This document shows positions 1,434 through 34,100 of a DNA stretch of 64,000 nucleotides, piece by piece. The DNA is from Siphonodentalium dalli (taxonomy: Eukaryota > Mollusca > Scaphopoda > Gadilida > Siphonodentaliidae): assembly GCA_032622095.1 (NCBI GenBank), contig CP136069.1:123122126-123186125 (forward strand), given 5' to 3'. The notes beneath the pieces are model-generated. The model was not told the origin of the DNA and did no database searches. It saw nothing but the letters and a program-made list of their open reading frames with translations. Within the stretch, counting starts at the first letter, position 1; each line of letters opens with the position of its first letter. Made by a program: the position numbers and the translations under genes.

Positions 1434-1465
1434 AGATGACGTATTTCTTCCCAGAAAGTTTTGAT

Positions 1466-2972: not shown

Positions 2973-4079
2973 GGGTTATCTATCTCCATTCTGAACTTTC
3001 TATACAGGTGCATGTAGGGGTATACGGAATAAAACATTTGAGTCAGAGAGACTAGAGAGTAGGAAATTTCTGTCAAAGGTAAATTTAGTTTTTTCAATTT
3101 GTTTTCGCGAATTGAGACAGAAAATGTGGCTATTTTTATAACAATACAATATTTTGTATTAAATATCTTTCTTTCATAAACATTTCATTGACCTTTAGGT
3201 GAATTATATGTTACATTAGTTGTTTCTCTTGTGTTTGTTTGCGAACAACGCTATAATCATTCCTTTAAAACGAGTTTTACAGATTAACAAAAAAATTATA
3301 TATTTGTTATTTTGGTATAATACCGGAGCAAGTTATATAAAAGCAATATGTCCAAATTGTCCTTGTACTATAGTGTTTCTTTTCCTGAATGATAATCTAA
3401 AAAAAACTACTATATAATTGATCAGTACCTACCAACACCGTGGCACTATACCAGGGCCAGTTAACCCAGCTCAATATATATATGTATATACATTCTCGGA
3501 TCAGTGCGAGACATGAATTTCTCCACCCCTAAATTTCTGTCCCGCAACTGATTACCTATAACGAATATTTGCGGCGTCATTGTGGATTTATTCCGATAAT
3601 GACTTTCTAAGTTACTATCTCTATCTGATTATCCCCTTGTCCAAGGGACGTATATAATTATTGCATGCAATGGTCACATGGTGGGCTTTTATACAAATTA
3701 AGAAAACCATAGCCAGAAATGGTAACGCCCTCAAGATCATATTATTAGGCACATATATAAATTATCATATAAAATATATTGGTTTCATGAATGCACCACC
3801 TCAGAATTCCGTTAAAAGAACGAATCCTTCAAATTATTACAACAACTACGGCTTATTACTGCAGGTTTCTCATTCACCACACCATAGAGCCTCTAAATGC
3901 GGACCAAAAATCTACTAATCGGATTAAATACTCACCCGATACTTCGCAATATCACCTTTAGTCTACATTCCAACTGAGACATACTTCATCAGCAATGTTA
4001 GCTATTATATATATTACCGTATGCATTGTGTTCCCCCAATAAAATCTTCAAGAGTGGCCCAGCCATTGTTCATACCTGA
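2973..4079. other. Unassigned AT-rich stretch
   Basis: Nothing with coding character. The short open frames here (for example 3,661-3,918) are of chance length and show no recognisable motif. Confidence 0.5.
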
Positions 4080-4235
4080 ATATCGAAAGTAATTAACGTG
4101 GTCATACAAGTTACATACTGCAACAATGAGACATCCGCGAAGATACATCCGCGAATACATACATCTGCAAAAACGTCTAACCGGTTCGCAATATACGTTA
4201 TTAATCAATATATATATGTATATCCCCATAGCTTC
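4080..4235. repeat. Dispersed repeat family C
   Basis: Contains GAGACATCCGCGAAGATACA, CTGCAAAAACGTCTAACC and CCCCATAGCTTCATAGCT. The same blocks in the same order occur at about 30,930-31,130 and 53,110-53,430. There is no ORF and I do not recognise the family. Confidence 0.65.
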
Positions 4236-4867
4236 ATAGCTCCTATTTTTAATTTAGTTTTTATATAAATTTTATTCGTCAAAAATAGCACAAGTAACGA
4301 ATATATAAACATAAAACAGTTCATAAAACTACAGTGCAAATACAACACATTTATTATATATGTTACTATTTAACTATTATATATTATTATACGGTATATA
4401 TCATACATGCAACGTCAGACATTGTTGATTAATCATTTCTTATCGAAGTTGTTTTCGTTACCTTTTTTTTTTTACCGTCGTTTCGCTTTTTTGATTTGTC
4501 GTAATATTTGGCGTATGCGGATAAAACAGTTTGTTTTATTTTTGCCGAAATTAAATTACATCTTCTGAAAATGATACCTGATGTATTGGTTATATTACTA
4601 ATCTTGGAAAATATCCCCAGAAAAAACGTTGGATGTTACCTGTTGGGTTATATTGTGGGAATATTACATTACTCTTCGTCTACTACAATTTCCTAAAATT
4701 ACTCGCATCGCGTGAAACCCGAAATGTGTTGACCTATGTATCCCCATAGCTCCATAGCTCCATTGACACGGCCAGATCAGCATGGCAGTATACAGCCATA
4801 GGGCGTAATTAACACGTTGTGTTAATACGTGTAGGCCAAGCCACCCGTACAGCTATTATTTAATAAA
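4236..4867. other. Unassigned AT-rich stretch
   Basis: Nothing recognisable apart from runs of T and TATA. Confidence 0.5.
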
Positions 4868-5000
4868 TAGAGCATGGCTTGGAGTGAAATACGCCGATAT
4901 AGTGCATAGTGAGGTTGTGTAGTTCACGACGCGAAGCGGAGTGAACTACACAACCGCACTATGCACTATATCGGCGTATTTCACGACAAGTCATGCTCTA
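4868..5000. repeat. Foldback hairpin
   Basis: Long imperfect hairpin from TAGAGCATG (4,868) to CATGCTCTA (5,000), with the stem continuing through CACTATATCGGCGTATTTCA and a short loop around GACGCGAAGCGG. It is non-coding despite a short overlapping open frame. Confidence 0.9.
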
Positions 5001-5439
5001 ATTATTATATTGTATCGAACAAATGCAGAAATTAAAGGCAAACCAGGAACGCAACGGGACTCCAGAGAAAACCTATGTAATTTTGATTTAGCAGTAGGAA
5101 ACTACTATTTTCAACTTTTACTAAGTTCAGACAATTGATGTTCGCCTTACTGAAGCTTTAATTTGGATCAGCGGCGAAATAACAAGTAGTTTCAGAACAA
5201 AGTTTGATGTAGTGTTCGTTACTATTTTTAGTAGTCAAAACTACATATACATAGTGCACGATGGGAGAGACTTGAAGGCGTAGTATACAACTACGACTAA
5301 TAGAGTCGAGTAGCCAACCAATCGGAAAGCTTGATTTCAATAACAAAGTCACGTGAGATACAATATTAGTTTGTATTTGGTCTTGATATTTGCTGTGATA
5401 TGTGAAATATCTTGATTTAACCCTTTCTCGGTGTGAGCT
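5001..5439. other. Unassigned stretch
   Basis: A 143-codon open frame on the minus strand (5,158-5,589) crosses this stretch and runs into the next repeat. It shows no domain or convincing coding character and is not called. Confidence 0.4.
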
Positions 5440-5600
5440 GCATTGATGCAGCATTAAGTGCCAGTGTATTCTCTTATATATACATGTCTCCCATAGGGAG
5501 CCTCCAATATATGCGAGAATGCACTGCTGTACCATGTTAATGTAAATATTGTTAGAGCAATGTATTCTCGAATATATAAGAGAATGCATTGGCCGCGTTC
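5440..5600. repeat. Hairpin repeat family D
   Basis: Carries TATTCTCTTATATATAC and ATATATGCGAGAATGCACTG, then ATATATAAGAGAATGCATTG. The family (ATTCTCTTATATATGCGAG and its complement) recurs at 23,121-23,585 and 30,640-30,810. Confidence 0.7.
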
Positions 5601-5955
5601 CATTGTGGTAGGAATGACATTGACAGGAGTGTTCACCAGGAAGTAATCGAGCTAACGAGCCTTTCCGTTTCCGTCATATATAATGGTATATTATTCTTAT
5701 AATATTCTTGATTGTGTCTGGATTCTAGGTGTGTCATTCTGGTCAATAATGCACGGAAGTGTGGAGCGTAGAGCAACTGTTCGAAGAACTAAGCCATTCT
5801 AAGCCACAAAGGGTAATCCATAATGTTGGCACATTTATTTTGTTTCTACCCTATACGGTGGTTTGCACATATACGCTCCTATACTGGACCGATCGATGAC
5901 GATAATTATGTTGTCCTGCGTATCTCTATTAGTACATCTGCACTTCTCTCTGTCA

Positions 5956-5990
5956 GAGAGAGAGAGAGGGAGAGAGAGAGGGGGAGATGG

Positions 5991-6035
<45 letters not shown>

Positions 6036-6050
6036 AGCGAGAGAGAGAGA
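5956..6050 (+). repeat. (GA)n microsatellite
   Basis: GA dinucleotide array with a few GGG interruptions. The overlapping open frames encode only Arg-Glu repeats and are not genes. Confidence 0.95.
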
Positions 6051-7204
6051 GGCTGGTCGTCAGAGGGTTAGACCCGGAAGAAATTTGTAATGAAGGTTTC
6101 TTGGTCTCATTTTGTAGGGGAAATGTCATGAATCACATATCCAAAATCAGCTAGCTCCGCTTTGAGCGAAATGTTCTATTCAAAATGGCGTCCATGATGG
6201 CAGTTTGTATCGAAAAAATGGTGTATTTCTGTGGTAGATGCACCCGCTAATGGCAAATTAGTAATAACATTAAATATACACAAACAACGCTTAGTCGTAA
6301 ACCATATATGTAGAATGTCTGCCCCAAATTGGCCCCCAAAATGGACAAAATGGGATTTAATAGGGATGTATTGATGTAACCTTTTCTAGAAGCAGAACTC
6401 TATGTACTCAGAGCAGTCTCATGAATGTGACCGACCATCATTTATTTTGATATATGCAACATCAAACCTGTCGAAATTCACTGCTATAGAACAGTATGAG
6501 TGCTATTCATAAAGTAATTGGTAACATGATTGTGTAGATCATATATATTGTCCGTGTCTTAAAATAGTAGTCATATTTTCCCCGGGTCAAGTGATGAAAC
6601 ACATGGTGGTATACTATGAACACAATTTATTAAAAACAAAGGAGTATACCACTGACCATCTTCAATAAAATTTAAACAACAAAAATTCCTACATGCTCTG
6701 TGGCAAAGACTATGTTTAAACCTGGAAATTATATTTGGTTATATTCACTTAGACCACATACACCCGAAACATACTACGTTTTCTGCAACCGCATCGTCGC
6801 GTTTAAAATTATCCCAAATGTTACACATATCTGCTTCACACAAAACCATATATAGCAACATTGAGCGGTCAACGTTGAAATAATAACTTTAAATGCTGAT
6901 CTATTGATATTTAGCACAGATACGTGGGTGGCATTAGTAAGATATGCATGTTCAAACAAGATACTAAAAACAAATATTGTGCCTTGTGTGGTAGCATATT
7001 CCAGTTGTATAGTGCCGACGGAATGAGTTTGGAAAAAGAATTCTACAAAATCAGATATAGTATATATACGACCCAAAGCGTCGGGCTTTGGTTCGTTATA
7101 ACAACAAACTTGTAAATTACCACTACGTATTTTCACCTCTAGGTGGTTATCCAATATATTGTTTTGGAGGTAAAAGCTGCTAAGGCTAAATCAAATTCGA
7201 ATAA
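6051..7204. other. Unassigned stretch
   Basis: Nothing recognisable. The open frame at 6,774-7,154 (minus) has no motif and no coding signature. Confidence 0.5.
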
Positions 7205-7372
7205 AAACTATCTTGATCAATTAACTTAGCTATCTTGATTAATCAACTTACTATCTCGATTAATCAACTTAGCTATCTTGATTAATCAACTTAGTTAGCT
7301 TGATTAATCAACTTACTATCTTGATTAATCAATTTAGCTATCTTGATTATTCAACTTAGCTATCTAACTGAT
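7205..7372 (+). repeat. Short tandem repeat, unit ~23 bp
   Basis: Six to seven imperfect copies of TTAGCTATCTTGATTAATCA, some lacking a few bases. Confidence 0.85.
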
Positions 7373-7783
7373 GTGAGATAGCACACAATTTATTAGCCCC
7401 CAAAGTAAAGAGATGCTGAAAAGTGTTTCCCAGAGGAAAGGGATGTGGCGCCTATAATTGTCTCGCCCCATTATATCGTATATTTGCACATCTAAACCAC
7501 CTTACACATATATCACAGAAACAAACTATCAACTTAAAGGATAGTTATTGGGGATAGCGTATATACTGATCAGTACACTAGTTATCAAAACTCGAGTAGT
7601 CTATATCGACATCCATAAGTGTATATATAGGTGTTACAACACAAGCATGTATTGATATTTCCTGAATTATGTACAAGTACAAACATATGAGTTTATTACT
7701 GACACCAGAACTATGACTATCATCGGAGAAGTCGGAAAATGTAATTATATATTCAAAATCGAAGAACAACTTCCCTTGTTGCA

Positions 7784-8374
7784 TTAAAGGGGTACTGTAC
7801 GCCAAATGTTGTTGTTGGTTTCTATAGTCTCCGAGTCGGAGAATAAGGTAAAAAAAATTCCATTATTTGAAAGTCTGTTGAGTACGAAGTCATGTTACGG
7901 ATGACAAATTTACCGGAATGCAAAAATACAAATTGTCGTTGTCGAGTAATTTTTGTAAAGTTTTCAACCAAATGAATCAAATAAAAGTTATATTATATGC
8001 ATACTAGTCCCATATAATCATTTAAGTTATTGTATCGTCGCTAGTCAGTGAGTGGCTTGAGTGTTCTCACCGTATCATCATAATATTTTAAGCAATCGTG
8101 TGTGCGATCGGTTTAAAAATCCAGTATCCCTCAATTACTATTTTTGATTACGGTAATTCGTAATTTAATTGACGCCATTTTATGGCTCCAGTCATAAATT
8201 CAATTTATATCAAATTATTAACTTTTAAATTATTAAATTTTAAGATAGCCTATTAACCTGAGCGTTTACAGAATACATCTTCGACTCAAATTACTTATGT
8301 TTCTATATATTATCGATATTAGATCGTTGTTGTCACCGGAAATTTAATGAAAATGGCGTACAGGACCCCTTTAA
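7784..8374. mobile_element. TTAA repeat family A, copy 2
   Basis: TTAA-bounded element. The left end is TTAAAGGGGTACTGTACGCC; the right end is GGCGTACAGGACCCCTTTAA. The interior is collinear with 876-1,433, with scattered substitutions and small gaps. It has no ORF. An isolated matching end lies at about 40,618. It is non-autonomous and probably mobilised in trans. Confidence 0.8.
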
Positions 8375-9110
8375 CAGCTATGTTTGCGAACGTGGTACTT
8401 TTAAATGTATTTGAGCCACACTCGACATTAAACACATAGATTTCTTGCACAAACAATCGTTGCGTGCATCCCGAACCAAAACACCACTGTGCTTCTTAAG
8501 TCGTCTAACACAAGCGTCAATAGCTCTTGAGTTACCAATGTCACAGTCTTCTACACATCATCGTATACACAATATGTTAGTTAAATTACAAACTTATACA
8601 TTGTTACTTATGTTTCCCTCATGCCATATATAGATTTGAATATATTACAATTAACATTTGAGTCTATTGCACAGTATTTTCCAAATCTTCAGTCGACATC
8701 ATTATTAAATATCTGAAACTGTCAATTTATAAACTTAAATGTGGCCTGTTTCCACCAGGGCGGGTTTGTACAACCAGATCTCGTACCTTCTGGTCACGTC
8801 CTTACATACTAATAATTCGATAAAAATTGGAAAGGTTTTCTGTTCTGTAATCAGGATAGTAACATCTAAAAACAAATGAGTATAAAATGTATAAATTGAA
8901 TATTGAACCAATATTGAAGCAAGTTTATTTAAAAAATTTCTCCAATTTCCCTTTTCCCGGTTCTATTTCATTTAGTATTTTGTTTTTAATGCTTATACTT
9001 GCAAAGAAACATTGTGTTCCACTTATTTTCCGATAAAACCATATATTTACATACACCTGATATTTCTTCTGATTTCCCCATAGCGTTACGGTAGACACGC
9101 CCCCTTATTC
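8375..9110. other. Unassigned stretch
   Basis: Nothing recognisable. Confidence 0.5.
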
Positions 9111-9114
9111 AATG

Positions 9115-9176
9115 CGTTCATAAACCTATGAACGTAACGTGACGTCACTTTCAATGTCGTTCATAGGTTTATGAAC
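9115..9176. repeat. Hairpin with 19-bp arms
   Basis: GTTCATAAACCTATGAACG at 9,115 pairs with CGTTCATAGGTTTATGAAC ending at 9,176. The loop contains the palindrome TGACGTCA. Confidence 0.85.
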
Positions 9177-9229
9177 ACATTGGTCCCGGAAATAACCGGG
9201 GATTGTCGGACATTACCGACTGCTTGAGT

Positions 9230-9600
9230 ATCTAGTCAGCCAATACGCCAAGGATTTGATAGCAAACAATATGTAATCGAGGTTCACGATTGGATGGCTG
9301 GTGGCATCTAATCGCGATCACGGGTGGCACGAGATGCTCGATTGACTATCAGAATGTTGGTTATCATTTAATCCCATAATATGTCAAATATAGCGAATTA
9401 TCGAAATATAAAATACAACGAAAAAGCGAAATATGAAAATACAGCGAAATAGCGAAATAGCACGAAAAATCGAAATAGGAAAATACAGCGAAATATAGAA
9501 ATAGGAAATTATTTTTATAAACGAAATAACGGAGATATATGAAAAAGTGTTTTTGACGAAATAACGGACATATTTGGAGAAGTGTTTTAAAGAGCGTAAG
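9230..9600. repeat. Dispersed repeat E with CGAAATA array
   Basis: A unique-looking left part (GGGTTCACGAT-like, CGATCACGGGTGGCACGAGA) runs into a degenerate array of CGAAATA words. The same order occurs at 52,110-52,430, so it is a dispersed family. The 156-codon minus-strand frame at 9,364-9,834 is an artefact of this array (Phe/Tyr-rich). Confidence 0.75.
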
Positions 9601-9620
9601 TATATAAATATAAATAATAA

Positions 9621-9760
9621 ACGGCGGATTCAGCGTGGTCATGGGTTTTGACCGCGATAAAAAATCAGCAAACTCCGCATGAACCCCTTCGGGGTTCATG
9701 CAGTTTGCTGAAATTTTCTCGCGGTCAAAACCCCATGACCATGCACATTGAAACCGCCGT
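9621..9760. repeat. Foldback hairpin, ~60-bp arms
   Basis: ACGGCGG (9,621) to CCGCCGT (9,760). The stem includes GGTCATGGGTTTTGACCGCG and its complement, with an apical GAACCCCTTCGGGGTTC hairpin. Confidence 0.9.
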
Positions 9761-10181
9761 TCATTTCTTATATAACTGCAGCGACTATTGTAATACAGTT
9801 CCAATGAGTCTGTTTCAACGATTGAGTGTGTCACTCGCTTTTTGACCGACCAAAGAATGCCATGGGGCCGATCGATCCCAACAAGAGTGTTGCGCTTTTA
9901 TTTATTGTATCAGTATGAAATTTCTCTGGACTGGAATCGCTGTTTCATTAGATTCGGTAAAGCTGACATCTTACCACAAATGCAAGAACCGATTGAAGTA
10001 ACACATATACAGATAATAATGGATAAATGTGCACTAGCCTATATAGGTACATGTATCTCAACCGCGATAACGCAAACCCATTAACTGAGATCGTGTCAGA
10101 AGAATTACTGACCAATCAGGTTTATATAATAGCACATTTATGGATTAGTGGCTGCACAATAACTCATAATAGGTATCGATA

Positions 10182-13678: not shown

Positions 13679-13684
13679 CATGAT
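13679..13684 (+). repeat. Target-site duplication, left (CATGAT)
   Basis: CATGAT immediately precedes the element terminus AGAAGAATAGG and is repeated as CATGAT directly after the other terminus at 22,409-22,414. Six-base duplications are typical of Polinton/Maverick integration by their retroviral-type integrase. Confidence 0.9.
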
Positions 13685-13754
13685 AGAAGAATAGGAGGCT
13701 CGTTCGCCTCACATCTAAAAATAGAATCTTTGGGGTCTAAAATTGGTTGTACTA

Positions 13755-13925
13755 AAATATTCCCAAAATATCAAAACCCAAAAAAAATTTCAAAACTTCC
13801 AAAAATTATTTTTTCCAAAAAATTTCAAAATCCCAAAACTTCCAAAAAATTTTAAAACCCCAAAATTTCAAAAGAAAAAATTTCAAAACCCTCAAAATTA
13901 TTTCTCCAAAAAAAGTTTAAATAAA
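13755..13925 (+). repeat. Subterminal AAAATTTC/CCCAAAA repeats (left)
   Basis: Degenerate words CCAAAAATT, TTTCAAAACCC and AAAATTTC are repeated many times about 70-240 bp from the element end; they are mirrored at 22,168-22,338. The Lys/Phe-rich open frames here are products of this repeat and are not genes. Confidence 0.8.
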
Positions 13926-14712
13926 AAATTTATAACGAGTTTTCGGTTTCTGATAATCTCGATATTAAAAAAAATGTCGAATGTTAAATTATTTGCGCGT
14001 AATATCTTTCGTTATTTTTTTTGTTCAACCAATGTTTCAATGTATTTATTAATCGATGTTTAGAAATAGCTTTATTGGACATTGTGACCATCGGTATGAA
14101 TGCATACATTCCAGTGTTTTATCGGACGCAGTTCATATAATTGTCATACCTGAAAATAGACACCATTACTTTTACATAAATAATAAAGAGCGTTTATTCT
14201 TTACACTCTCTCTATCCCAGATGAAGTTATTGAGTATATGACAGGTGTGTATTATCGTGAATTATTGGAAGTATTGAGATGTACTATGTTGAATCACTAA
14301 CGGTCGAAAATTGTAATGTGAAATTACAACCCTCCAGAATGAATTGTCATATTCGCTGTACACGCAATCACACACGCGACATTGGTGGTAACAATGTGTC
14401 TTTCACACTTTGCTTTACCAAATGAATTATATTATTTCCCCGTTCACAGTTATATGCTATTCAGAAAACATATCGACTTAATGTCTGAACAAACGGGTTA
14501 GTATCAATTAAGGTTGATAAACTGTGTCATTGTTAGCATTAACACGATAATTAGTTATCCAAAACATGCATACATATTACGTCCAGGTCACTCAATTATA
14601 GAAATTGCTTCGGTGTCATTGTTATAACAACATTACGTAATAACCACTTATCACTCCATTCACACTTACGATCATTTTGTATACCAAAAATTTCAATATA
14701 ATGAAGATGACG

Positions 14713-14935
14713 AAAAGTTACCTATAATTCTGCTGTGGTTAAGCCACAACAACAACAACAACAACAACACCAACAACACCAACAACAACAACAACAACAA
14801 CAACAGTCACCAAGCGACATAACATCCTGTTTTGATGATCCAATGGCCAATGTCCATGAAGATTTTATTTCCGATGCAAGTCATATTTCAGACTAACTCC
14901 TGAAAAGTTACCTATAATTCTGCTGTGGTTAAGCA
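14713..14935 (+). repeat. Duplicated polyQ/ATPase 5' fragment, left arm
   Basis: A stretch of CAA codons followed by CACCAAGCGACATAACATCC and CCAATGGCCAATGTCCATGA matches the polyQ-to-ATPase junction of the ATPase gene. It breaks off after GAAGATTTTATTT. It is bracketed by two direct copies of a ~33-bp sequence starting GAAAAGTTACCTATAATTCT (about 14,713 and 14,901), which also occurs on both sides of the element centre. The piece is a copied, non-functional gene fragment. Confidence 0.8.
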
Positions 14936-15126
14936 TTCCATTATTTAGGGCATACCTGTATGTAGGCCTACCAGTGGATGAATAGTCTGCCGGAGAAGTA
15001 CTGTGTAGACAGGTCTTGTCGGTAAGAAAGTCAGACGAGTAGTGAAGGCTCGGCTATTAAAACATAGTAATGCGATAGCGAACATCAAACGAGTCTGCGC
15101 ACGCATATCTGTCAAAGGATACAATG

Positions 15127-15211
15127 GCAGTCATTGGTCAATTTATCCCCGGTGTCAGCTCGGTACAATAACAGTCATTGGTCAATTTATCCCCGGTGTC
15201 AGCTCAGTACA
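15127..15211 (+). repeat. 43-bp direct duplication (left arm)
   Basis: Two copies of CAGTCATTGGTCAATTTATC plus CCCGGTGTCAGCTC, 43 bp apart; mirrored in the right arm near 20,897-20,981. Confidence 0.9.
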
Positions 15212-15247
15212 CAATCGGCACGAAGCCGGAGGTCATAATTACTCTTA

Positions 15248-15806
15248 CGAATGAAGAGCGTTGAACATATACGAAATTATTACACGAATGAACTGAAATT
15301 TATATTTCACATCTTACCAACAACAGATACAGACATAGTCATAGTGTTATACTATCTTACATGTACCCATGCTGTGACATCATTCGAAGGGGCAATACAC
15401 GCAAGGAGTTAAAGTGACACGAAACAAGGGACGTGATGTAATATTGGTGTTTGAATCTTAAAGGAACACAAGACACTCTAAAGGGACACTCATTATGAAT
15501 GAATGTTAACAATACAAGCGCACGAATGAAGAGCGTTGAACATATACGAAATTACTACACGAATGAACTGAAATTTATATTTCACATCTTACCAACAACA
15601 GATACAGACATAGGCATAGTGTTATACTATCTTACATGTACCCATGCTATGACATACTTAAAGGGGGATAATGCACGCACGGTGTGGAATGTTAAAGTGA
15701 CACGAAACAAGGGACGTGATGCAATATTGGTGTTTGAATATTAAAAGGAACACAAGACACTCTAAAGGGACACTCATTATGAATGAATGTTAACAATACA
15801 AGCGCA
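15248..15806 (+). repeat. ~280-bp tandem duplication (left arm)
   Basis: Copy 1 is 15,248-15,522 and copy 2 is 15,523-15,806. Both start CGAATGAAGAGCGTTGAACA and end AACAATACAAGCGCA. Both arms carry the duplication (mirror 20,302-20,860), so it predates the inverted duplication of the arms. The short open frames inside show no family resemblance. Confidence 0.9.
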
Positions 15807-15989
15807 GTGGTTGAAAGTTAAAATGACAGATCAATATTTAAGGGTCAAATTTTCGGGCACTTAATGCACCTTTTATCATTACGTATCGTTTCTCACTCTA
15901 CAATTCCCAATAATCCACACACTCTCTCCCCCCAGCTTATAGATATATAACGAAAACGAGAATATCATGTTGATGAAGTTTATTGAAAT

Positions 15990-16373
15990 TTAATCGTCCG
16001 AATTGTCATCACTTTCGTCAGAAGTGTCATATGTTACGTCCATGAATTTTTCTAGCATCGGTTTGTACTTTAATATTGACATTTTCACTGCATCACATTC
16101 TCCATAACCATTATTCAAATATTTGTCGACTTTATCCATGACTCTGTTGTGCAGAGTCCCATTGCGCAGCTGCAGATACGATACTATTGTCCAAGCATAA
16201 TCATTCATAAAGTGTATCATATCTTTACTTTTAAGGTCCTTGTCAGCTTGTTCTTTTGCTTCTGCGTCTTTCGAGCCATTTTCCTTATACGTGTCCACTT
16301 TATCACTCCATTCCTCACGTGTTTTATCTCTACTTTCATCACACAAACTTTTGAAGTATTCATCTTCATTCAA
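15990..16373 (-). CDS. Acidic segment downstream of ATPase, left arm
   Basis: An open frame of about 127 codons encoding a charged protein rich in Asp, Glu and Lys that ends in an acidic tail (DTSDESDDNSDD). Its amino-acid sequence is the same as that of the right-arm copy. There is no in-frame ATG before about residue 52, and the frame opens (TTG) overlapping the last codons of the ATPase frame. It therefore looks like the C-terminal part of the ATPase gene put out of frame by a small deletion, and not like a separate gene. I do not recognise a domain in it. Confidence 0.45.
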   Translation of the reverse strand: MNEDEYFKSLCDESRDKTREEWSDKVDTYKENGSKDAEAKEQADKDLKSKDMIHFMNDYAWTIVSYLQLRNGTLHNRVMDKVDKYLNNGYGECDAVKMSILKYKPMLEKFMDVTYDTSDESDDNSDD

Positions 16374-17524
16374 TTTAATTTCCTTATTCTGACTATCATT
16401 AATTTTCGTTTTAACTTATTTTCTTGACACCAGTTTTTTACGTGTCTCTGAACATCATAATGATCTGCGAACAAAAGCCCGCATTCGTTACAAGGGTACG
16501 ACATGTCTTCTCGAATGTTTTGACGGTTCTTCTTATTAATTTCATCGAGCTCACCAGGTGGCCGTATGTCGTTAGTATAGTCATTATGTTGACCCTGGGG
16601 CACAATATAATTATATGTTATGCCCTTCTGTTGACCAGGGAGTTCTCTGTCATCGTATTTCATCGCATTCTGTTGACCCTGGGTCTCAGTGTCTTTTGTA
16701 TGTTTTTTCATCCCATTCTGTTCATCTGGGTGTTCTCTGTCTTTTTGGAGATTATATTTCATGCCATTCCATTCACCCCTATGTTGGTTCGTGTCCTCTT
16801 TTAGTACATTCTGTCGCAGACGTAATGTGTCCGGTGTTGCGGCTTTTAAATCCACCAGTAGGTAACCGTACGGTTCACTCGTCGCTTCCGAAAACTCTCG
16901 AACCATACGCTGAGGACATTCAGGATACATCTGTCTTGATAATGTTGAAATTAATCCCTTGTCGATTGGGTTATTGAACAATACCAAATATTGACAATTT
17001 CGTCGTTGCGTTGGATCTTTGTTGTAGTAGAAATTCTGGTTCAAACTTATCAAAGATAAGTTCAAATGGTGACTTCCTTCGGAATGCAAATCATTAACTC
17101 TCTGGTCTTTTGATGAAGTTTGCATCAAGTCATCGAGTATAACTATATTTTTATACCGGGGGTTGATAAGCGAATCCAAGTTTGCTGGTATTCCTCGTAT
17201 AAAGTTGACCTGAGGGGTGACGGTATACTTTAATTCGTCATATAGGGGCTGCCAATATTTATAAAACCATATTATTCTGTCAGGTGCGGGTGATATTTTT
17301 GAGGCAGACTTTTGTAGTAAGGTTTTCACGAAGTATGTCTTACCACAAGATGTCGGTCCACTTACACATGCCGTGAATGGATGCTTGAAAATAAAATCTT
17401 CATGGACATTGGATCATCAAAGCAGGATGTTATGTCGCTTGGTGGCTGTTGTTGTTGTTGTTGTTGTTGTTGTTGATGATACTGTTGTTGTTGTTGTTGT
17501 TGTTGTTGTTGCGGCTGATGATAC

Positions 17525-17558
<34 letters not shown>

Positions 17559-17646
17559 CTGAAGGCGTGTGTTTAACTTTGATATGACGCTTCAAACTAT
17601 CTTGCCAAGCATAGACACTTAAGCACTCTTCACATTGATACTTCAT
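16370..17646 (-). pseudogene. A32-like packaging ATPase, left arm, frameshifted
   Basis: Left-arm copy of the gene at 18,494-19,696. It starts at 17,646 with a C2H2 finger and glutamine tract, but an 8-bp deletion between CCAATG direct repeats near 17,410 shifts the frame just before the ATPase domain. The ATPase frame is open again from about 17,330 to 16,370. The C-terminal finger (C-x2-C-x12-H-x4-C) is complete here and truncated in the other arm. Relative to the right arm this copy lacks 13 bp close to its stop. PolyQ length also differs between arms, with a second YH interruption here. As it stands it cannot make a continuous ATPase. Viral-type packaging ATPases of this superfamily load genomes into capsids. 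Confidence 0.8.
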
Positions 17647-17925
17647 TTTCCTATATAATCAGTGAAATCGAGCGTTCTTCTATGCACCTATATTTATATA
17701 GAACAGAAACAAGGGAAACGTGGTGGACTAGTTAACTAGTTCAGGCTGTCGTTCACAACGTCTCTTAGTGTTGTTTGTACTGGATACAAATTTATCACAT
17801 TAGCTACAATACAACCTACCTATCCAAATGTCAATGCAATTATGAGTGATTTCAATATGAACACTCTATTATATAGATATGTGTAACCTGGTGACTGACA
17901 TGATGATACAGTTATGCACTAAATA
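17647..17925. promoter_or_regulatory. Likely upstream region of left-arm ATPase gene
   Basis: About 280 bp between the ATPase start and the GC-rich centre, matched by 18,215-18,493 in the other arm. Both contain CTATATAAATATAGG about 40-50 bp before the ATG, a plausible TATA element. The two genes therefore diverge from the centre with duplicated promoters. Function is inferred from position only. Confidence 0.4.
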
Positions 17926-18214
17926 ATGGACTGCTTAACCACAGCAGAATTATAGGTAACTTTTCAGGAGTTAGTCGGAAATATGGCTTGTTGCCATTCA
18001 TCGGAAAGCTCTCGCCGGCGGCGGCGGTATTGCGGTATTTTACTGCGGCGGCGGCGGTGCCGCCGCCGCCGCCGGGGTCCGCCGCCGGCGGACCCCGCAG
18101 TAAAATACTGCAATGCCGCCGCCGGCGAGAGCTTTCCGATGAATGGCAACAAGCCATATTTCCGACTAACTCCTGAAAAGTTACCTATAATTCTGCTGTG
18201 GTTAAGCAGTCCAT
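17926..18214. repeat. GC-rich palindromic junction of the two arms
   Basis: The centre of the element. The arms converge through GGTAACTTTTCAGGAGTTAG and its inverse, then enter a (CGG)n/(CCG)n block at about 18,010-18,130. That block holds two nested palindromes: one centred near 18,059, and GGGGTCC...GGACCCC at 18,074-18,096. The symmetry is imperfect by about 32 bp, so a small unpaired insertion sits at the tip. It is strikingly GC-rich for this AT-rich window. Confidence 0.9.
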
Positions 18215-18493
18215 TATTTAGTGCATAACTGTATCATCATGTCAGTCACCAGGTTACACATATCTATATAATAGAGTGTTCATATTGAAATCACTCATAA
18301 TTGCATTGACATTTGGATAGGTAGGTTGTATTGTAGCTAATGTGATAAATTTGTATCCAGTACAAACAACACTAAGAGACGTTGTGAACGACAGCCTGAA
18401 CTAGTTAACTAGTCCACCACGTTTCCCTTGTTTCTGTTCTATATAAATATAGGTGCATAGAAGAACGCTCGATTTCACTGATTATATAGGAAA

Positions 18494-18620
18494 ATGAAGT
18501 ATCAATGTGAAGAGTGCTTAAGTGTCTATGCTTGGCAAGATAGTTTGAAGCGTCATATCAAAGTTAAACACACGCCTTCAGAACAACAACAACAACAACA
18601 ACAACAGTATCATCAGCCGC

Positions 18621-18675
<55 letters not shown>

Positions 18676-19696
18676 GCCACCAAGCGACATAACATCCTGC
18701 TTTGATGATCCAATGGCCAATGTCCATGAAGATTTTATTTTCAAGCATCCATTCACGGCATGTGTAAGTGGACCGACATCTTGTGGTAAGACATACTTCG
18801 TGAAAACCTTACTACAAAAGTCTGCCTCAAAAATATCACCCGCACCTGACAGAATAATATGGTTTTATAAATATTGGCAGCCCCTATATGACGAATTAAA
18901 GTATACCGTCACCCCTCAGGTCAACTTTATACGAGGAATACCAGCAAACTTGGATTCGCTTATCAACCCCCGGTATAAAAATCTAGTTATACTCGATGAC
19001 TTGATGCAAACTTCATCAAAAGACCAGAGAGTTAATGATTTGCATTCCGAAGGAAGTCACCATTTGAACTTATTTTTGATAAGTTTGAACCAGAATTTCT
19101 ACTACAACAAAGATCCAACGCAACGACGAAATTGTCAATATTTGGTATTGTTCAATAACCCAATCGACAAGGGATTAATTTCAACATTATCAAGACAGAT
19201 GTATCCTGAATGTCCTCAGCGTATGGTTCGAGAGTTTTCGGAAGCGACGAGTGAACCGTACGGTTACCTACTGGTGGATTTAAAAGCCGCAACACCGGAC
19301 ACATTACGTCTGCGACAGAATGTACTAAAAGAGGACACGAACCAACATAGGGGTGAATGGAATGGCATGAAATATAATCTCCAAAAAGACAGAGAACACC
19401 CAGATGAACAGAATGGGATGAAAAAACATACAAAAGACACTGAGACCCAGGGTCAACAGAATGCGATGAAATACGATGACAGAGAACTCCCTGGTCAACA
19501 GAAGGGCATAACATATAATTATATTGTGCCCCAGGGTCAACATAATGACTATACTAACGACATACGGCCACCTGGTGAGCTCGATGAAATTAATAAGAAG
19601 AACCGTCAAAACATTCGAGAAGACATGTCGTACCCTTGTAATGAATGCGGGCTTTTGTTCGCAGATCATTATGATGTTCAGAGACACGAAAATTAA
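18494..19696 (+). CDS. Zinc finger-polyQ-A32-like packaging ATPase, right arm
   Basis: A 400-codon open frame starting at an ATG that begins a C2H2 finger (C5, C8, H21, H26). Next come a Gln-rich tract with a YH interruption (about 31-62), then an ATPase domain. The Walker A motif is GPTSCGKT (about 94-101), the Walker B-type motif is LVILDDL (about 165-171), and GSHHLNLFLISLNQN follows, with the Asn/Gln sensor expected of the A32/FtsK-HerA superfamily. From about 280 to 365 lie five imperfect ~17-residue repeats with Q-N/K-G/A-M-K-Y. A second finger starts at C382 but is cut short after H398 because this arm lacks 34 bp present in the left arm. A32-like ATPases drive genome packaging in Polintons and related viruses. 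The ATPase core is intact by eye. I recall similar ATPases as multicopy proteins in other invertebrate genomes. Confidence 0.8.
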
Positions 19697-19734
19697 CTGA
19701 GGACCCGGATGATAGTCAGAATAAGGAAATTAAA

Positions 19735-20118
19735 TTGAATGAAGATGAATACTTCAAAAGTTTGTGTGATGAAAGTAGAGATAAAACACGTGAGGAATGG
19801 AGTGATAAAGTGGACACGTATAAGGAAAATGGCTCGAAAGACGCAGAAGCAAAAGAACAAGCTGACAAGGACCTTAAAAGTAAAGATATGATACACTTTA
19901 TGAATGATTATGCTTGGACAATAGTATCGTATCTGCAGCTGCGCAATGGGACTCTGCACAACAGAGTCATGGATAAAGTCGACAAATATTTGAATAATGG
20001 TTATGGAGAATGTGATGCAGTGAAAATGTCAATATTAAAGTACAAACCGATGCTAGAAAAATTCATGGACGTAACATATGACACTTCTGACGAAAGTGAT
20101 GACAATTCGGACGATTAA
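19735..20118 (+). CDS. Acidic segment downstream of ATPase, right arm
   Basis: Mirror of 15,990-16,373 with the same predicted amino-acid sequence, including the acidic tail. It is separated from the ATPase stop by 38 bp that include a 13-bp piece missing from the left arm. There is no nearby in-frame ATG, so independent translation is doubtful; probably the displaced C-terminus of the ATPase gene. No known domain recognised. Confidence 0.45.
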   Translation: MNEDEYFKSLCDESRDKTREEWSDKVDTYKENGSKDAEAKEQADKDLKSKDMIHFMNDYAWTIVSYLQLRNGTLHNRVMDKVDKYLNNGYGECDAVKMSILKYKPMLEKFMDVTYDTSDESDDNSDD

Positions 20119-20301
20119 ATTTCAATAAACTTCATCAACATGATATTCTCGTTTTCGTTATATATCTATAAGCTGGGGGGAGAGAGTGTGTGGATTATTG
20201 GGAATTGTAGAGTGAGAAACGATACGTAATGATAAAAGGTGCATTAAGTGCCCGAAAATTTGACCCTTAAATATTGATCTGTCATTTTAACTTTCAACCA
20301 C

Positions 20302-20860
20302 TGCGCTTGTATTGTTAACATTCATTCATAATGAGTGTCCCTTTAGAGTGTCTTGTGTTCCTTTTAATATTCAAACACCAATATTGCATCACGTCCCTTG
20401 TTTCGTGTCACTTTAACATTCCACACCGTGCGTGCATTATCCCCCTTTAAGTATGTCATAGCATGGGTACATGTAAGATAGTATAACACTATGCCTATGT
20501 CTGTATCTGTTGTTGGTAAGATGTGAAATATAAATTTCAGTTCATTCGTGTAGTAATTTCGTATATGTTCAACGCTCTTCATTCGTGCGCTTGTATTGTT
20601 AACATTCATTCATAATGAGTGTCCCTTTAGAGTGTCTTGTGTTCCTTTAAGATTCAAACACCAATATTACATCACGTCCCTTGTTTCGTGTCACTTTAAC
20701 TCCTTGCGTGTATTGCCCCTTCGAATGATGTCACAGCATGGGTACATGTAAGATAGTATAACACTATGACTATGTCTGTATCTGTTGTTGGTAAGATGTG
20801 AAATATAAATTTCAGTTCATTCGTGTAATAATTTCGTATATGTTCAACGCTCTTCATTCG
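20302..20860 (-). repeat. ~280-bp tandem duplication (right arm)
   Basis: Inverse counterpart of 15,248-15,806, two adjacent copies. Confidence 0.9.
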
Positions 20861-21172
20861 TAAGAGTAATTATGACCTCCGGCTTCGTGCCGATTGTGTA
20901 CTGAGCTGACACCGGGGATAAATTGACCAATGACTGTTATTGTACCGAGCTGACACCGGGGATAAATTGACCAATGACTGCCATTGTATCCTTTGACAGA
21001 TATGCGTGCGCAGACTCGTTTGATGTTCGCTATCGCATTACTATGTTTTAATAGCCGAGCCTTCACTACTCGTCTGACTTTCTTACCGACAAGACCTGTC
21101 TACACAGTACTTCTCCGGCAGACTATTCATCCACTGGTAGGCCTACATACAGGTATGCCCTAAATAATGGAC

Positions 21173-21395
21173 TGCTTAACCACAGCAGAATTATAGGTAA
21201 CTTTTCAGGAGTTAGTCTGAAATATGACTTGCATCGGAAATAAAATCTTCATGGACATTGGCCATTGGATCATCAAAACAGGATGTTATGTCGCTTGGTG
21301 ACTGTTGTTGTTGTTGTTGTTGTTGTTGGTGTTGTTGTTGTTGTTGTGGCTTAACCACAGCAGAATTATAGGTAACTTTTCGTCATCTTCATTAT
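21173..21395 (-). repeat. Duplicated polyQ/ATPase 5' fragment, right arm
   Basis: Inverse counterpart of 14,713-14,935. The trinucleotide tract is about 15 bp different in length, which accounts for the shift of the coordinate sum from 36,108 to 36,093. Confidence 0.8.
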
Positions 21396-22408
21396 ATTGA
21401 AATTTTTGGTATACAAAATGATCGTAAGTGTGAATGGAGTGATAAGTGGTTATTACGTAATGTTGTTATAACAATGACACCGAAGAAATTTCTATAATTG
21501 AGTGACCTGGACGTAATATGTATGCATGTTTTGGATAACTAATTATCGTGTTAATGCTAACAATGACACAGTTTATCAACCTTAATTGATACTAACCCGT
21601 TTGTTCAGACATTAAGTCGATATGTTTTCTGAATAGCATATAACTGTGAACGGGGAAATAATATAATTCATTTGGTAAAGCAAAGTGTGAAAGACACATT
21701 GTTACCACCAATGTCGCGTGTGTGATTGCGTGTACAGCGAATATGACAATTCATTCTGGAGGGTTGTAATTTCACATTACAATTTTCGACCGTTAGTGAT
21801 TCAACATAGTACATCTCAATACTTCCAATAATTCACGATAATACACACCTGTCATATACTCAATAACTTCATCTGGGATAGAGAGAGTGTAAAGAATAAA
21901 CGCTCTTTATTATTTATGTAAAAGTAATGGTGTCTATTTTCAGGTATGACAATTATATGAACTGCGTCCGATAAAACACTGGAATGTATGCATTCATACC
22001 GATGGTCACAATGTCCAATAAAGCTATTTCTAAACATCGATTAATAAATACATTGAAACATTGGTTGAACAAAAAAAATAACGAAAGATATTACGCGCAA
22101 ATAATTTAACATTCGACATTTTTTTTAATATCGAGATTATCAGAAACCGAAAACTCGTTATAAATTTTTTATTTAAACTTTTTTTGGAGAAATAATTTTG
22201 AGGGTTTTGAAATTTTTTCTTTTGAAATTTTGGGGTTTTAAAATTTTTTGGAAGTTTTGGGATTTTGAAATTTTTTGGAAAAAATAATTTTTGGAAGTTT
22301 TGAAATTTTTTTTGGGTTTTGATATTTTGGGAATATTTTAGTACAACCAATTTTAGACCCCAAAGATTCTATTTTTAGATGTGAGGCGAACGAGCCTCCT
22401 ATTCTTCT

Positions 22409-22414
22409 CATGAT
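22409..22414 (+). repeat. Target-site duplication, right (CATGAT)
   Basis: Identical to 13,679-13,684 and directly abutting the terminus CCTATTCTTCT. Confidence 0.9.
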
Positions 22415-23120: not shown

Positions 23121-23585
23121 ATATGTGACCCGCCATATCAAATCCAGTCGGAAGTCGGGATTTTTTTACCCTGTGCCAATGCATTCTCTTATATATGCGA
23201 GTCGACCATAGGTCGCCTCGCATATATAAGAGAATGCATTGGCCTAACAATTTTTTACTATTTTAATAATTTGTTGTTGTATTCTTTAACAATTTTATAA
23301 TTTCACCCATACAGAGCCCCAGACAAACATGAGCAGACGACACTTTTCTATATGCTTCTATATATGTGTGGGGCTCCATGCAGGGTAATGGATGTTTATT
23401 ATTTTATGTCCTAAAAATTGTAAGAAACATTTATTTAAAAAACATGAAAAAAAATTGTTAGGCCAATGCATTCTCTTATATATGCGAGGCGACCTATGGT
23501 CGACTCGCATATGTAAGAGAATGCATTGGCACAGGGTAAAAAAAATCCCGACTTCCGACTGGATTTGATATGGCGGGTCACATAT
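23121..23585. repeat. Nested foldback: two hairpins in inverted orientation
   Basis: The outer arms 23,121-23,260 and 23,447-23,585 are inverse copies (ATATGTGACCCGCCATATCA outermost). Each arm itself contains a complete hairpin, GCCAATGCATTCTCTTATAT folding on ATATAAGAGAATGCATTGGC. The ~185-bp spacer is AT-rich. Family D hairpins also occur at 5,440 and 30,640. Confidence 0.9.
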
Positions 23586-23623: not shown

Positions 23624-24213
23624 AGCGAGATCTAATAGACACAAGTTACACAGCGAGATCTAATAGACACAAGTTACACAGCGAGATCTAATAGACACAA
23701 GTTACACAGCGAGATCTAATAGACACAAGTTACACAGCGAGATATAATAGACACAAGTTACACAGCGAGATCTAATAGACACAAGTTACACAGCGAGATC
23801 TAATAGACACAAGTTACACAGCGAGATCTAATAGACACAAGTTACACAGCGAGATCTAATAGACACAAGTTACACAGCGATATCTAATAGACACAAGTTA
23901 CACAGCGAGATATAATAGACACAAGTTAAACAGCGAGATCTAATATACACAAGTTACACAGCGAGATCTAATAGACACAAGTTACACAGCGAGATCTAAT
24001 AGACACAAGTTACACAGCGAGATCTAATAGACACAGGTTACACAGCGATATCTAATAGACACAAGTTACACAGCGAGATCTAATAGACACAAGTTACACA
24101 ACGAGATATAATAGACACAAGTTACACAGCGAGATCTAATAGACACAAGTTACACAGCGAGATATAATAGACACAAGTTACACAGCGAGATCTAATAGAC
24201 ACAAGTTACACAA
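23624..24213 (+). repeat. 28-bp minisatellite (~21 copies)
   Basis: Head-to-tail copies of AGCGAGATCTAATAGACACA plus AGTTACAC with only occasional substitutions (GATATA or GATATC for GATCTA). Units abut without spacers. Confidence 0.97.
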
Positions 24214-31834: not shown

Positions 31835-34100
31835 ACATGGAAACGTCAGATCCGAGTGAATACTGGAAGTTTATTAAAAAAATGAGAGATGATAGTAGGA
31901 AAGATAACGACGATCTTGATCCAGACATTATGATTTATATTGCAACAGCGCTCATCGGGATAAAGATACTTTTATATGTAAAACAGACAAACCTAAGATC
32001 ATTTGCGATCTCAATAATGATGAAATTTCGACCCTGGAAGTAATAGGCGTTCTGAAGAGTTTGAAAAATAATAAATCTCCAGGCAGTGACGGGCTGCGGA
32101 ATGAACTATTGAAAGCCGTCGGACCGATTATGGCACAAGATTTAACAAAGTTGTTTAATTTGGTTCTGAACTCTTCATATTATCCTACATGTTGGAGCGA
32201 GTCCACACTGACACCTATCTATAAAAAAGGTGATCGTCACGATCCAAACAATTATAGAGCTATAGCTTTGAGCAGTTCTATAAGTAAAATATTTAACAAA
32301 ATAATCAATACACGAATTTCCAAATTTTTGGATGATAATGATATTATAAGTGATAATCAATATGGATTTAGAAAAAATAGAAGCACGATTGATAGTGCTT
32401 TCATTTTAAAATCGCTAACTACTAAGTACCTGAAAGAGGCAAAACCTCTATATGCAGTATTTGTAGACTTCCGTAAGGCATTTGATACTGTCCACCGAGA
32501 GACAATGTTTACTAAATTGAAACATGTTGGTATCAATGGCAATATTGTGAAAACTATTGAATCTATGTATGCGTCAAGTGCTTATTCGGTACGAACTAGC
32601 CAAGGTTATGGGCCTCATATTATTTCAAATATTGGCGTTAGACAAGGATGTATTATTTCTCCCACAATTTTCAAAATATTTATTGATGACATTAGCGCCG
32701 AATTTTATGATTCGTGCAAACCGGTTAAAGTTGGCGAATAATATCTAAGTCATATGCTATTTGCAGATGATCTGGTTATGCTATCTGAAACTGCTGAAGG
32801 TATGCAAAGATGTTTGAATAAATTGGAGAATTACAGCATAAGGAACAAAGTAGAAGTGAATCTTCAGAAAACTGAATGCCTGATATTCAGGAAACGAGCA
32901 ACAAAAAAAATAACTGCCTTTAAATTAAGCAACACTCCGTTGGAAACAGTTAAGGAATATACCTATCTTGGTATTAAATTTTGTGCGAATGGAAAATTTT
33001 GCAAAGCCCAGATAGATGTTAACAACAAAGGGTTAAAAGCAATGTATAGTTTAATGTCATCCTTGCGCAAACATGAAATTTTCTCAGTAAGCATTTGGTG
33101 TAAACTATTTGACAAGCTGATAAAACCTATCGTTTTATATGGTTGTGAAATATGGGCATCGCATATTAATATTAACAAGCTCGAATCTATTCCATGTGAA
33201 ATTACACATGTTAAATTTTGTAAATCGGTGTTGGGTTTAAATAGAATGGCGTCTAATCACGCGACAAGAGCAGAATTGGGCAGATTTCCGATAGCACATG
33301 ATGCGATAATGAATGCTGTAAGATATATGCTTAAACTGTCTGAAAGAAAACCGAATATGTTACTTCAGAATTCTGCCCAAATATGCGAGGAATATATAAT
33401 TCCACCGTTTTTGGCAGAAGCACTTCACATGCCAAAAATAAGCGATTTAGAGAATAACCTATCGCTGGAATATCTCAATAAAGTCCGGGAAGAATTAAAA
33501 TGCGTTCATATTCTAACGTTCAAAAACGAAATATTCGATGACAACAAGAAAAATGGTATGAATAAATTAAGAACGTATCGTTGTTTCAAAGAACAATATG
33601 AAATTGAACCATACTTACTCCAAATTACTAATTTTTATACGAGATCGTGTTTCAGTAAGTTTAGAGTAAGCAATCATAAGTTGCAGGTAGAGGTTGGGCG
33701 ACACGCTCAGCCAAAAATACCTTACGAGAAACGCATATGTAAAAAATGTGAAGCAAATGAAATTGAAACGGAAGAACACTTTATAATGAGATGTGAAAAA
33801 CATAACCATTTGCGGAAGAGAATTTTCACTGAAATAGGAGTTCACCAACCAATTTTCGTAAACTTTGATGAAATAGAAAAGTTCATATTCCTCATGAAGG
33901 CTGAACACCCGAGCATATGCAATCTGATCTGTAACATGGTTCGGCAGTTTTCCGCAAATAAATGAGAATATAGTGTTGAGTTACAAATACATGTTATATA
34001 TATATTTTATATGAAATTTTCTTGACTTGTGTTTAAATTATCTGTATTATGACAACTGCCCCGCGTGGGTGTATTATGTCAATAAAAAAATGTTAAATGT
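31835..34100 (+). pseudogene. Non-LTR retrotransposon (LINE), 5'-truncated and broken
   Basis: Remains of an ORF2 polyprotein. 31,846-32,043 encodes the spacer before the reverse transcriptase (DPSEYWKFIKKM). A frameshift near 32,045 leads into the RT frame from 32,061 (KNNKSPGSDGLRNELL). RT landmarks are NYRAIALSS, YAVFVDFRKAFDTV (motif A), GVRQGCIISP (motif B) and FADDLVML (motif C). A single in-frame TAA at 32,739 separates B from C. After RT come a thumb and C-terminal region and a Cys-rich finger (C-x2-C ... H ... C). The ORF ends at 33,965, followed by a 3' region with AATAAA near 34,080. The endonuclease is missing. Not capable of retrotransposition as read; clade not assigned. Confidence 0.85.

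Follow-up and report, generated by a model that had tools for sequence, protein, structure and literature searches.

Palindromic Polinton relatives in the genome of Siphonodentalium dalli as probable integrated snapback genomes

The window analyzed here is a 64,000-nt stretch of Siphonodentalium dalli DNA (assembly GCA_032622095.1, contig CP136069.1, positions 123,122,126–123,186,125, forward strand). It contains a palindrome of 8,724 bp at positions 13685–22408. Arm-to-arm alignment showed that the right arm (18071–22408, minus strand) is an inverted copy, more than 98% identical, of the left arm (13685–18070, plus strand), which confirmed the two head-to-head arms described in an earlier note on this DNA. 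The termini given there, AGAAGAATAGG/CCTATTCTTCT, and the flanking CATGAT pair (target duplications at 13679–13684 and 22409–22414, plus strand) are all exact. The arms share mirror blocks of 1639, 1106, 976 and 566 nt, each 97–100% identical. With the asymmetric centre left aside, they differ by five isolated substitutions; one altered patch lies at about 16400–16440 / 19689–19708, and five indels of 3–15 bp fall mostly within CAA/GTT repeats.

The outer part of the left arm (13685–14690, plus strand) begins with AGAAGA, that is (AGA)2, and is 92–93% identical to the terminal inverted repeat of two full-length Polintons, L031 and L032; its mirror forms the other end (21403–22408, minus strand). 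The inner edge of the terminal repeat (14877–14961, plus strand) recurs as an inverted 94% copy shortly before the centre, in a stretch adjacent to the fold-back (17906–17990, minus strand; mirror copy at 18150–18234). The centre itself is a GC-rich asymmetric hairpin (18020–18115; TGCGGTATTTTACTGC ... GGGGTCCGCC/GGCGGACCCC ... CCGCAGTAAAATACTGC).

The right arm encodes a 400-aa ORF (18494–19696, plus strand) with zinc-finger-like ends, a polyQ stretch and an A32-like packaging ATPase core (Pox_A32 E 8.6e-5, 22.6 bits, just under the cut-off of 22.8), which lacks its C-terminus owing to a frame break. In the left arm, a 7-bp difference at 17406 severs the ATPase core copy (319 aa, 16370–17329, minus strand) from the N-terminal zinc finger and polyQ (17362–17646, minus strand); the ATPase frame is interrupted in both arms of this copy. 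The earlier note had recognized an A32-like ATPase and nothing else: the ATPase stands, but each arm also carries a 127-aa ORF (19735–20118, plus strand; left-arm copy 15990–16373, minus strand). This ORF is similar to the C-terminal domain of that protein: a single comparison with the C-terminus of the zinc-finger ATPase in element L012 gave 26% identity across 119 aa (E 6e-5). Neither PolB nor integrase was found in the two largest ORF kinds scanned, the zinc-finger ATPase and the 127-aa ORF. Rather than a full Polinton, the window holds a non-autonomous derivative.

Full-length relatives with the same ends, a check proposed for the Polinton assignment, do exist. These 16-kb elements carry PolB, an rve-chromo integrase, a capsid gene and an ATPase. 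L031/L032 have terminal inverted repeats of about 1.1 kb (97.8%) and profile matches to DNA_pol_B_2 (PolB2; E 2.6e-51), rve (4.5e-15) and Chromo (8.6e-8), besides the A32-like ATPase; the search for an adenain-like protease gave a weak Peptidase_C5 match (5e-4, 20.2 bits, below the cut-off of 21.3). In both, the PolB region is split over two ORFs and the capsid gene over two frames. The capsid ORF had no sequence match in Pfam or PDB, and the 370-aa version in L046 has 111 homologs. A model of one homolog, P0139 (pLDDT 90, built from 35 of the 111 aligned), matched the capsids of iridovirus, Sputnik, mavirus and PBCV-1 (best E 1.6e-15, TM 0.5–0.65). The modelled protein is this homolog rather than the element's own, and its predicted fold is that of the virophage/NCLDV jelly-roll major capsid proteins. 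No relative was found in the viral contigs scanned. The family of the window palindrome is Polinton.

We then considered 23 loci retrieved with the window's outer arm, the first 22 of which were selected by similarity to that arm. They hold 24 elements, 21 of them palindromes; the 2,159 first-look candidates are not taken as an element count. A perfect 6-bp target duplication with two readable ends was seen in 20 of the 24, namely 18 elements with both ends resolved and the two elements at L035. The right end is unreadable in L029/30, L036 and L038 and damaged in L034. Chance is excluded as the source of these duplications, since all 18 two-end-resolved elements have a perfect repeat as against 0 of 944 offset controls, which were drawn from 16 of the 18 (all except the window and L037). 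All 18 also have (AGA)2 ends, with the exception of the right end of L032, which reads (AGA)3. The further palindromes with 6-bp duplications of their own that the earlier note had proposed to look for are numerous.

Both ends are intact and readable in 17 palindromes (16 and L035), and in these the target duplications abut the outer ends. The host flanks show no palindromic relation (in 16 elements, 166 matches out of 640, the chance level). These two observations indicate that the palindrome was formed before insertion. They also bear on two other explanations. Inverted chimeras are a known class of artefact, so that a single real arm might have been mirrored by the library or the assembler. 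However, the mirroring stops at the element termini in the 16 elements, the main arm blocks diverge by 0.4–3.3% with gaps counted, and in the same assembly an integrase probe gave one inverted neighbour pair in 100 sites as against 31 in the 100 listed for an ATPase probe; we regard an artefact as extremely improbable. Two monomers could likewise have inserted in opposite orientation, as large families yield such neighbours by chance, or a chromosomal inverted duplication could have followed insertion. Neither event would give the shared outer 6-bp duplication found in 16 of 16 intact-ended palindromes and at L035, which refutes both at the resolved loci. The ATPase probe, moreover, had no convergent and no same-strand neighbours within 15 kb among the 100 listed sites, and such origins deserve hardly any credence.

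The window palindrome is not a one-off, as those 31 inverted neighbour pairs, all divergent and within 15 kb, came from 100 listed of 708 ATPase sites. A further 38 of the 100 have no inverted partner; these could represent either monomers or palindromes in which the partner site has mutated. The integrase probe gave 0 divergent, 1 convergent and 2 same-strand neighbours (100 sites). Genome-wide, 1,039 copies of the terminal motif were counted (531+508), as against 0 for its reversed-pattern control. Among 100 terminal sites listed (C1 up to 205.5 Mb), 44 pairs were found, in 43 of which the variable letters agree between the two ends, and 12 sites outside the pairs had no partner. The listed pairs span 3.1–11.1 kb in 34 of 44 cases. 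Ten of these 34 short elements contain the exact ATPase probe; six show mirror-symmetric copies (offsets differing by 0–16 bp), two are monomer-sized, and two measure 6.9 and 8.4 kb. The other 24, unclassified by the probe, include two known palindromes (L009 and L019/L020).

Empty sites were sought for six palindromes. The result was clear for one, L021, where a single CAGGCT is present in six neighbouring units of a 173-bp tandem array (94–96%). L026 has a candidate at 23216–23344 of the window (90%, two gaps), and none was found for L018, L019, L023 and L025. The empty-site check was therefore positive at L021 but not for the window's own palindrome. In another case, a full Polinton (target duplication GATGAA) had inserted within one palindrome arm, and the site is uninterrupted in the opposite arm.

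The origin of the arms was traced through putative parents. L012 is a 5.8-kb monomer with Polinton ends and one zinc-finger ATPase gene, and it carries the window's central hairpin module between this gene and the right terminal repeat (type A). The nearest parent found for the window palindrome is this satellite, not a full Polinton. From the sequence comparison, the palindrome appears to be a fold-back of L012 at the GC-rich hairpin, the direction probably being from monomer to palindrome, although for type A it could have been the opposite. A like fold-back arose separately from a full Polinton and in other lineages. L037 is the integrase end of a Polinton folded back (97.5–98% identical): its positions 5220–9901 correspond to 3265–7931 of L032 (98.0%) and its positions 520–5230 to 8102–3397 inverted (97.5%), with a loop of about 121 nt and GGCG shared at the junction. 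The loop is about 638 nt in L022 and about 2.3 kb in L018, where some 30 bases at the junction are unexplained; the junction of L025 is apparently different. The hairpin motif lies at or near the centre in 14 of the 21 palindromes, and the sequence around it is of at least two kinds.

These structures have features of Foldback-type transposons (Galileo/FB), a cut-and-paste class in which terminal repeats would have grown inward by recombination until they met. Galileo has a P-like cut-and-paste transposase. Both groups are mobile with very long inverted (terminal) repeats, and L018 and L025, whose palindromes are partial and have an unpaired centre, also agree with such growth. Foldback elements, however, are without Polinton genes, whereas the full-length members here encode PolB, an rve integrase and a capsid protein, and no P-element-like transposase parent was encountered. 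Furthermore, the centres of L018 and L037 extend a single arm, the arrangement of an asymmetric snapback, and L037 shares with the remaining half of L031, the related Polinton, the terminal repeat only (matches over 60 bp). We consider a Foldback origin very unlikely.

There is also a resemblance to defective viral genomes. Adenovirus has a protein-primed linear genome, and its defective genomes can have one end inversely duplicated; the duplicated end is alike, but those genomes are neither integrated nor vertically inherited. In AAV, according to PMC8235507, snapback subgenomes have one end duplicated head-to-head, either symmetric or asymmetric with a loop. The palindromes share the duplicated end, with or without a loop, and a usable end on both sides; the doubling of a known parent's end through a one-arm loop is seen in L037 (versus L032), L022, L018 and the window (versus L012). 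AAV is, however, a parvovirus whose snapbacks were found in virions (PMC8235507), whereas the present palindromes sit in the chromosomes, flanked by target duplications, and have multiplied. Likeness to Polintons/Mavericks lies in the 6-bp target duplications, the short tandem-repeat end motif starting with AG, the terminal inverted repeats and the PolB, integrase, ATPase and capsid genes of full-length members. Intact vertebrate Mavericks measure 12.7–24.6 kb with two gene modules according to PMC8097293, as compared with 34 of 44 listed C1 pairs at 3.1–11.1 kb and 21 of 24 palindromic elements here. The stem 'palindrom' is absent from the text of that article, and no palindromic or snapback Polinton was found among the listed matches of open-access literature searches or in parts of PMC12721341 and PMC2836005, which does not prove absence.

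The inverted dimer could also have arisen at a chromosomal fork, by strand-to-strand template switching at an integrated copy (as in ODIRA) followed by release and re-integration. As outlined in PMC4689423, ODIRA dimers form at short interrupted inverted repeats, like the junctions here, and are then integrated; they differ in that they comprise cellular chromosome segments, pass through a circular intermediate and have no transposon ends. A fork-based event does not explain why the palindromes end exactly at Polinton termini, while this coincidence is expected if the element's own ends are the ends of the replicating molecule. We hold this route to be quite unlikely. Microhomology-mediated fold-back during chromosomal break repair, followed by excision, could in principle also produce such dimers.

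Full Polintons, 5.8-kb ATPase-only satellites and head-to-head palindromes from one end of either coexist in this genome, each inserted as a unit. Together with the full-length relatives, the further palindromes with their own duplications and the L021 empty site, this supports the snapback interpretation of the earlier note. We propose, with a probability of roughly 0.84, that the palindromes arose by snapback replication of free linear Polinton DNA, then integrated and multiplied, and that the window holds the snapback genome of a Polinton satellite. Protein-primed replication would start from an origin in both terminal repeats of the free linear DNA; a strand, whether nascent or displaced, would fold back at a hairpin or a few bases of microhomology and copy itself back to its own origin, and opening of the loop would yield a linear palindrome with two good ends. 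A Polinton integrase would then insert this molecule into the chromosome, generating the 6-bp duplication; for the ATPase palindromes, supply of the integrase in trans fits these observations. Lineages centred on the GC-rich hairpin would subsequently have amplified as palindromes using a helper polymerase. At somewhat less than even odds, the palindromes are themselves the propagating genome form, hairpin-centred palindromic DNA satellites, in which the encoded hairpin causes the 5.8-kb monomer to fold back routinely and a palindrome with two origins and two promoters outcompetes the monomer and helper Polinton.

We know of no observation of an animal Polinton replicating in free form. According to PMC8097293, Maverick particles have not been observed. 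Integrated snapbacks with a parent, junction, loop and duplication would be evidence, from the genome itself, that Polinton DNA was free and linear and had usable ends before it integrated, and that an integrase accepts a molecule with two ends of this kind. They would thus be a fossil trace of the copying of virus-like elements. This opens the replication mode of Polintons to testing in a living animal. Integrated palindromes of such great length, with arms that can be dated, should also be useful for studies of palindrome stability.

Outside the terminal repeats, the arms of one element are barely closer to each other than to those of other elements (0.1–0.9%), and most type A/B palindromes may consequently be copies of few founders rather than separate snapbacks. 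Trees of internal arms were almost star-like and were dropped as proof of separate snapbacks. Orientation flips of the central spacer were also dropped as evidence, being uninformative because a palindrome can insert in either orientation. A satellite/helper system inside one genome is suggested, and the terminal repeat of L031, which clusters with those of the palindromes L028 and L033 at about 1.1–1.3%, points to helper–satellite exchange.

The palindrome occupies positions 13685-22408 of the window (8,724 bp) and is made of two arms of ~4.39 kb that match by more than 98%; CATGAT directly abuts both of its outer ends. A probe taken from the outermost 1.1 kb of an arm was run against the host genome (G000; 2.23 Gb, 9 contigs), only the best candidates being scored. 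This search gave 43 matches at 23 loci including the window, and all other 22 loci were fetched. Because one locus (L035) contains two nested elements, these represent 24 elements, of which 21 are palindromic past the terminal repeat, with main inverted arm blocks 96.7-99.6% identical. The remaining three are not palindromic in this sense: the 5.8-kb ATPase-only monomer L012, one Polinton of full length (L031/L032), and the inner of the two L035 elements, also a Polinton. All 18 elements with both ends resolved (16 palindromes, L012 and L031/L032) are flanked by a perfect direct repeat of 6 bp, different in sequence each time, and an offset control on 16 of them gave no match in 944 comparisons. 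The nested pair of L035 adds two more duplications, ATTATA and GATGAA, and the palindrome L034, whose right end is damaged, shows TCCATG; the right end was unreadable in L029/30, L036 and L038.

The host flanks are devoid of mirror symmetry (166 matches out of 640, at 40 bases per side in 16 elements). The flanks of six palindromes (L018, L019, L021, L023, L025, and L026) were joined in an empty-site test. L021 sits in a tandem array with a unit of 173 bp, and its joined flanks with a single CAGGCT match six uninterrupted array units at 94-96%. An unclear match, at 90% with two gaps, was obtained for L026, and none to the joined flanks for L018, L019, L023 and L025. In L035, a full Polinton lies within one palindrome arm with GATGAA on either side, while the opposite arm is continuous through GATGAA. 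This indicates that the palindrome is older and that the Polinton moved in later. The left junction of the nested Polinton appears twice in the fetched sequence L045 (467 and 1923) because of a 1.46-kb tandem duplication.

The full-length Polinton L031/L032 spans ~16 kb with terminal repeats of 1.1 kb, and the terminal kilobase of the window palindrome is 92-93% identical to both of its ends. It encodes PolB (DNA_pol_B_2, 2.6e-51), an integrase (rve, 4.5e-15, and Chromo, 8.6e-8), a putative protease of weak Peptidase_C5 similarity under the cut-off (5e-4), and a 225-aa ATPase of weak A32-type similarity that is 31% identical to the satellite ATPase; the PolB region is split over two ORFs and the capsid gene over two frames, so that this copy may not be intact. 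The capsid ORF (370 aa) of the second full copy, nested at L035 (L046), had no sequence match in Pfam or PDB. It has 111 homologs, and the structural model of one of them, P0139 (pLDDT 90), matches capsid proteins of iridovirus, Sputnik, mavirus and PBCV-1. A study on vertebrate Mavericks reports target duplications of 6 bp and end motifs in repeated units, to which a role in jumping-back during protein-primed replication is ascribed (PMC8097293); the end motif here is (AGA)2, with a third unit at one right end. Among the 120 listed of 180 ATPase relatives, the animals named as sources are bivalves (Pecten, Mizuhopecten, Pinctada, Mytilus, Mya, Mercenaria, Ruditapes, and Solemya), and one relative is labelled as a bacterial MAG; the bivalve sources make a molluscan host likely.

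The fold-back can be followed in the palindrome of the Polinton integrase end, L037. Its positions 5220-9901 correspond unbroken to L032 3265-7931 (98.0%), and positions 520-5230 correspond to L032 8102-3397 in inverted orientation (97.5%). The arms are 99.6% alike and meet at a loop of ~121 nt, the exact letters common at the switch being GGCG inside an imperfect inverted match; in both arms the frames of the integrase and of an ATPase are open, and the target duplication is AATAGT. For the window-type palindromes (the window copy, L010/11, L013, L033, and L034), the nearest monomer found is L012, which has one open 589-aa frame flanked by ~1.3-kb terminal repeats. The protein contains zinc-finger-like segments, polyQ, an A32-like ATPase (Pox_A32 above cut-off) and a C-terminal domain. 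A GC-rich hairpin located between the gene and the right terminal repeat of L012 is the centre of the window-type palindromes, with the gene side mirrored. Fold-back occurred via ~638 nt of a second arm class (type B) in L022, via ~2.3 kb of a third (type C) in L018, and apparently at another point in L025. These fold-backs correspond to the asymmetric kind of AAV snapback genome described in PMC8235507. Fourteen of the 21 palindromes have the hairpin motif at or close to their centre; it is partial in L029/30 and absent from L018, L022, L025, L035, L037 and L038.

Genome-wide, the exact terminal motif has 531 + 508 sites and the reversed pattern none. The 100 listed sites all lie on contig C1, as far as 205.5 Mb, and comprise 44 pairs and 12 unpaired sites; 34 pairs measure 3.1-11.1 kb and 10 measure 15.6-17.4 kb. 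The ATPase probe (34 letters) has 347 + 361 sites. Among the 100 listed (C1 and the start of C2), all 31 pairs of neighbours within 15 kb are divergent, none being convergent or on the same strand, and 38 sites are without partner. By extrapolation, ~220 palindromes of this type would exist if the listed sites are typical. The integrase probe has 77 + 75 sites; in the 100 listed, no neighbours are divergent, one pair is convergent and two are on the same strand. Nine of the 10 listed 16-kb C1 elements contain a single integrase site each, located 2.8-3.0 kb from one of their ends. Ten listed C1 elements carry the ATPase probe: twice at mirrored distances (differences of 0-16 bp) in six, and once in four, two of which are of monomer size (5.7 and 6.0 kb). 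The convergent integrase sites, 8.6 kb apart (C3:191340194-191348849), may belong to another palindrome built from the integrase end. At C1:159746518-159773483, six same-orientation terminal motifs with identical variable letters follow one another every ~5.4 kb and so form a tandem array of element ends.

The ATPase core of L012 gave dN/dS values of 0.11-0.29 against palindrome copies (seven comparisons with small counts, 6-7 silent and 3-7 replacement changes; Fisher p 0.003-0.03 in the four tested, all sharing L012). These low values indicate that the core was constrained on the path between them. Among palindromes, 0-3 silent and 0-5 replacement changes give ratios of 0-0.77 where defined, counts too small to judge. 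In the window copy the frame is broken in the left and right arm alike. The type B and type C arms examined match mainly the C-terminal part of the satellite ATPase protein, at 76% and about 50% identity, respectively, and in one type B arm a stretch of 105 aa aligns at 74% with a different ORF of the full Polinton.

The 34-letter terminal motif has two variable stretches, letters 11-14 and 21-25 (window 13695-13709 and mirror). The variable letters of both ends are identical in 43 of the 44 listed C1 elements and agree in 8 of 946 pairings of different elements; 37 distinct combinations occur among the 44. These letters may serve as a code by which ends are recognised, or may result from the copying of ends. 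Within the outermost 900 bp, an element's own two ends resemble each other more than they resemble any other element in 17 of 18 cases. In the tree of ends they are sister tips in 15 of 18, those of L009 being separated by the root alone and those of L021/L023 intermixed. The terminal repeat of the full Polinton L031 clusters with the repeats of two palindromes, L028 and L033, and the inner arm regions have nearly star-like relations. Taken together, these data suggest that a few palindrome lineages were amplified, that the two ends of each molecule were equalised shortly before insertion, and that helper and satellite exchanged end sequences.

The parent, the junctions, the insertion as a unit and the numbers of probe sites are direct observations. 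The process would involve free linear DNA with strand-displacement replication starting at its ends, on which fold-back priming may take place. The resulting hairpin would be turned into a linear palindrome and probably integrated by the integrase of a Polinton, acting in trans on palindrome types that do not encode one.

Elsewhere in the window, tandem arrays lie at 23624-24212 (unit 28 bp), 36756-38213 (486 bp) and 62368-63033 (45 bp). A 480-bp inverted repeat (53570-54049 / 55386-55864; 98% alike, 1.3 kb spacing) is distinct from the palindromic element. At 32061-33965 (+), two ORFs share one reverse transcriptase (RVT_1 4.2e-27 and, under the cut-off, 1.7e-6), and at 56870-58039 (-) a cys-loop receptor-like ORF of 389 aa was found (Neur_chan_LBD 1.5e-33).
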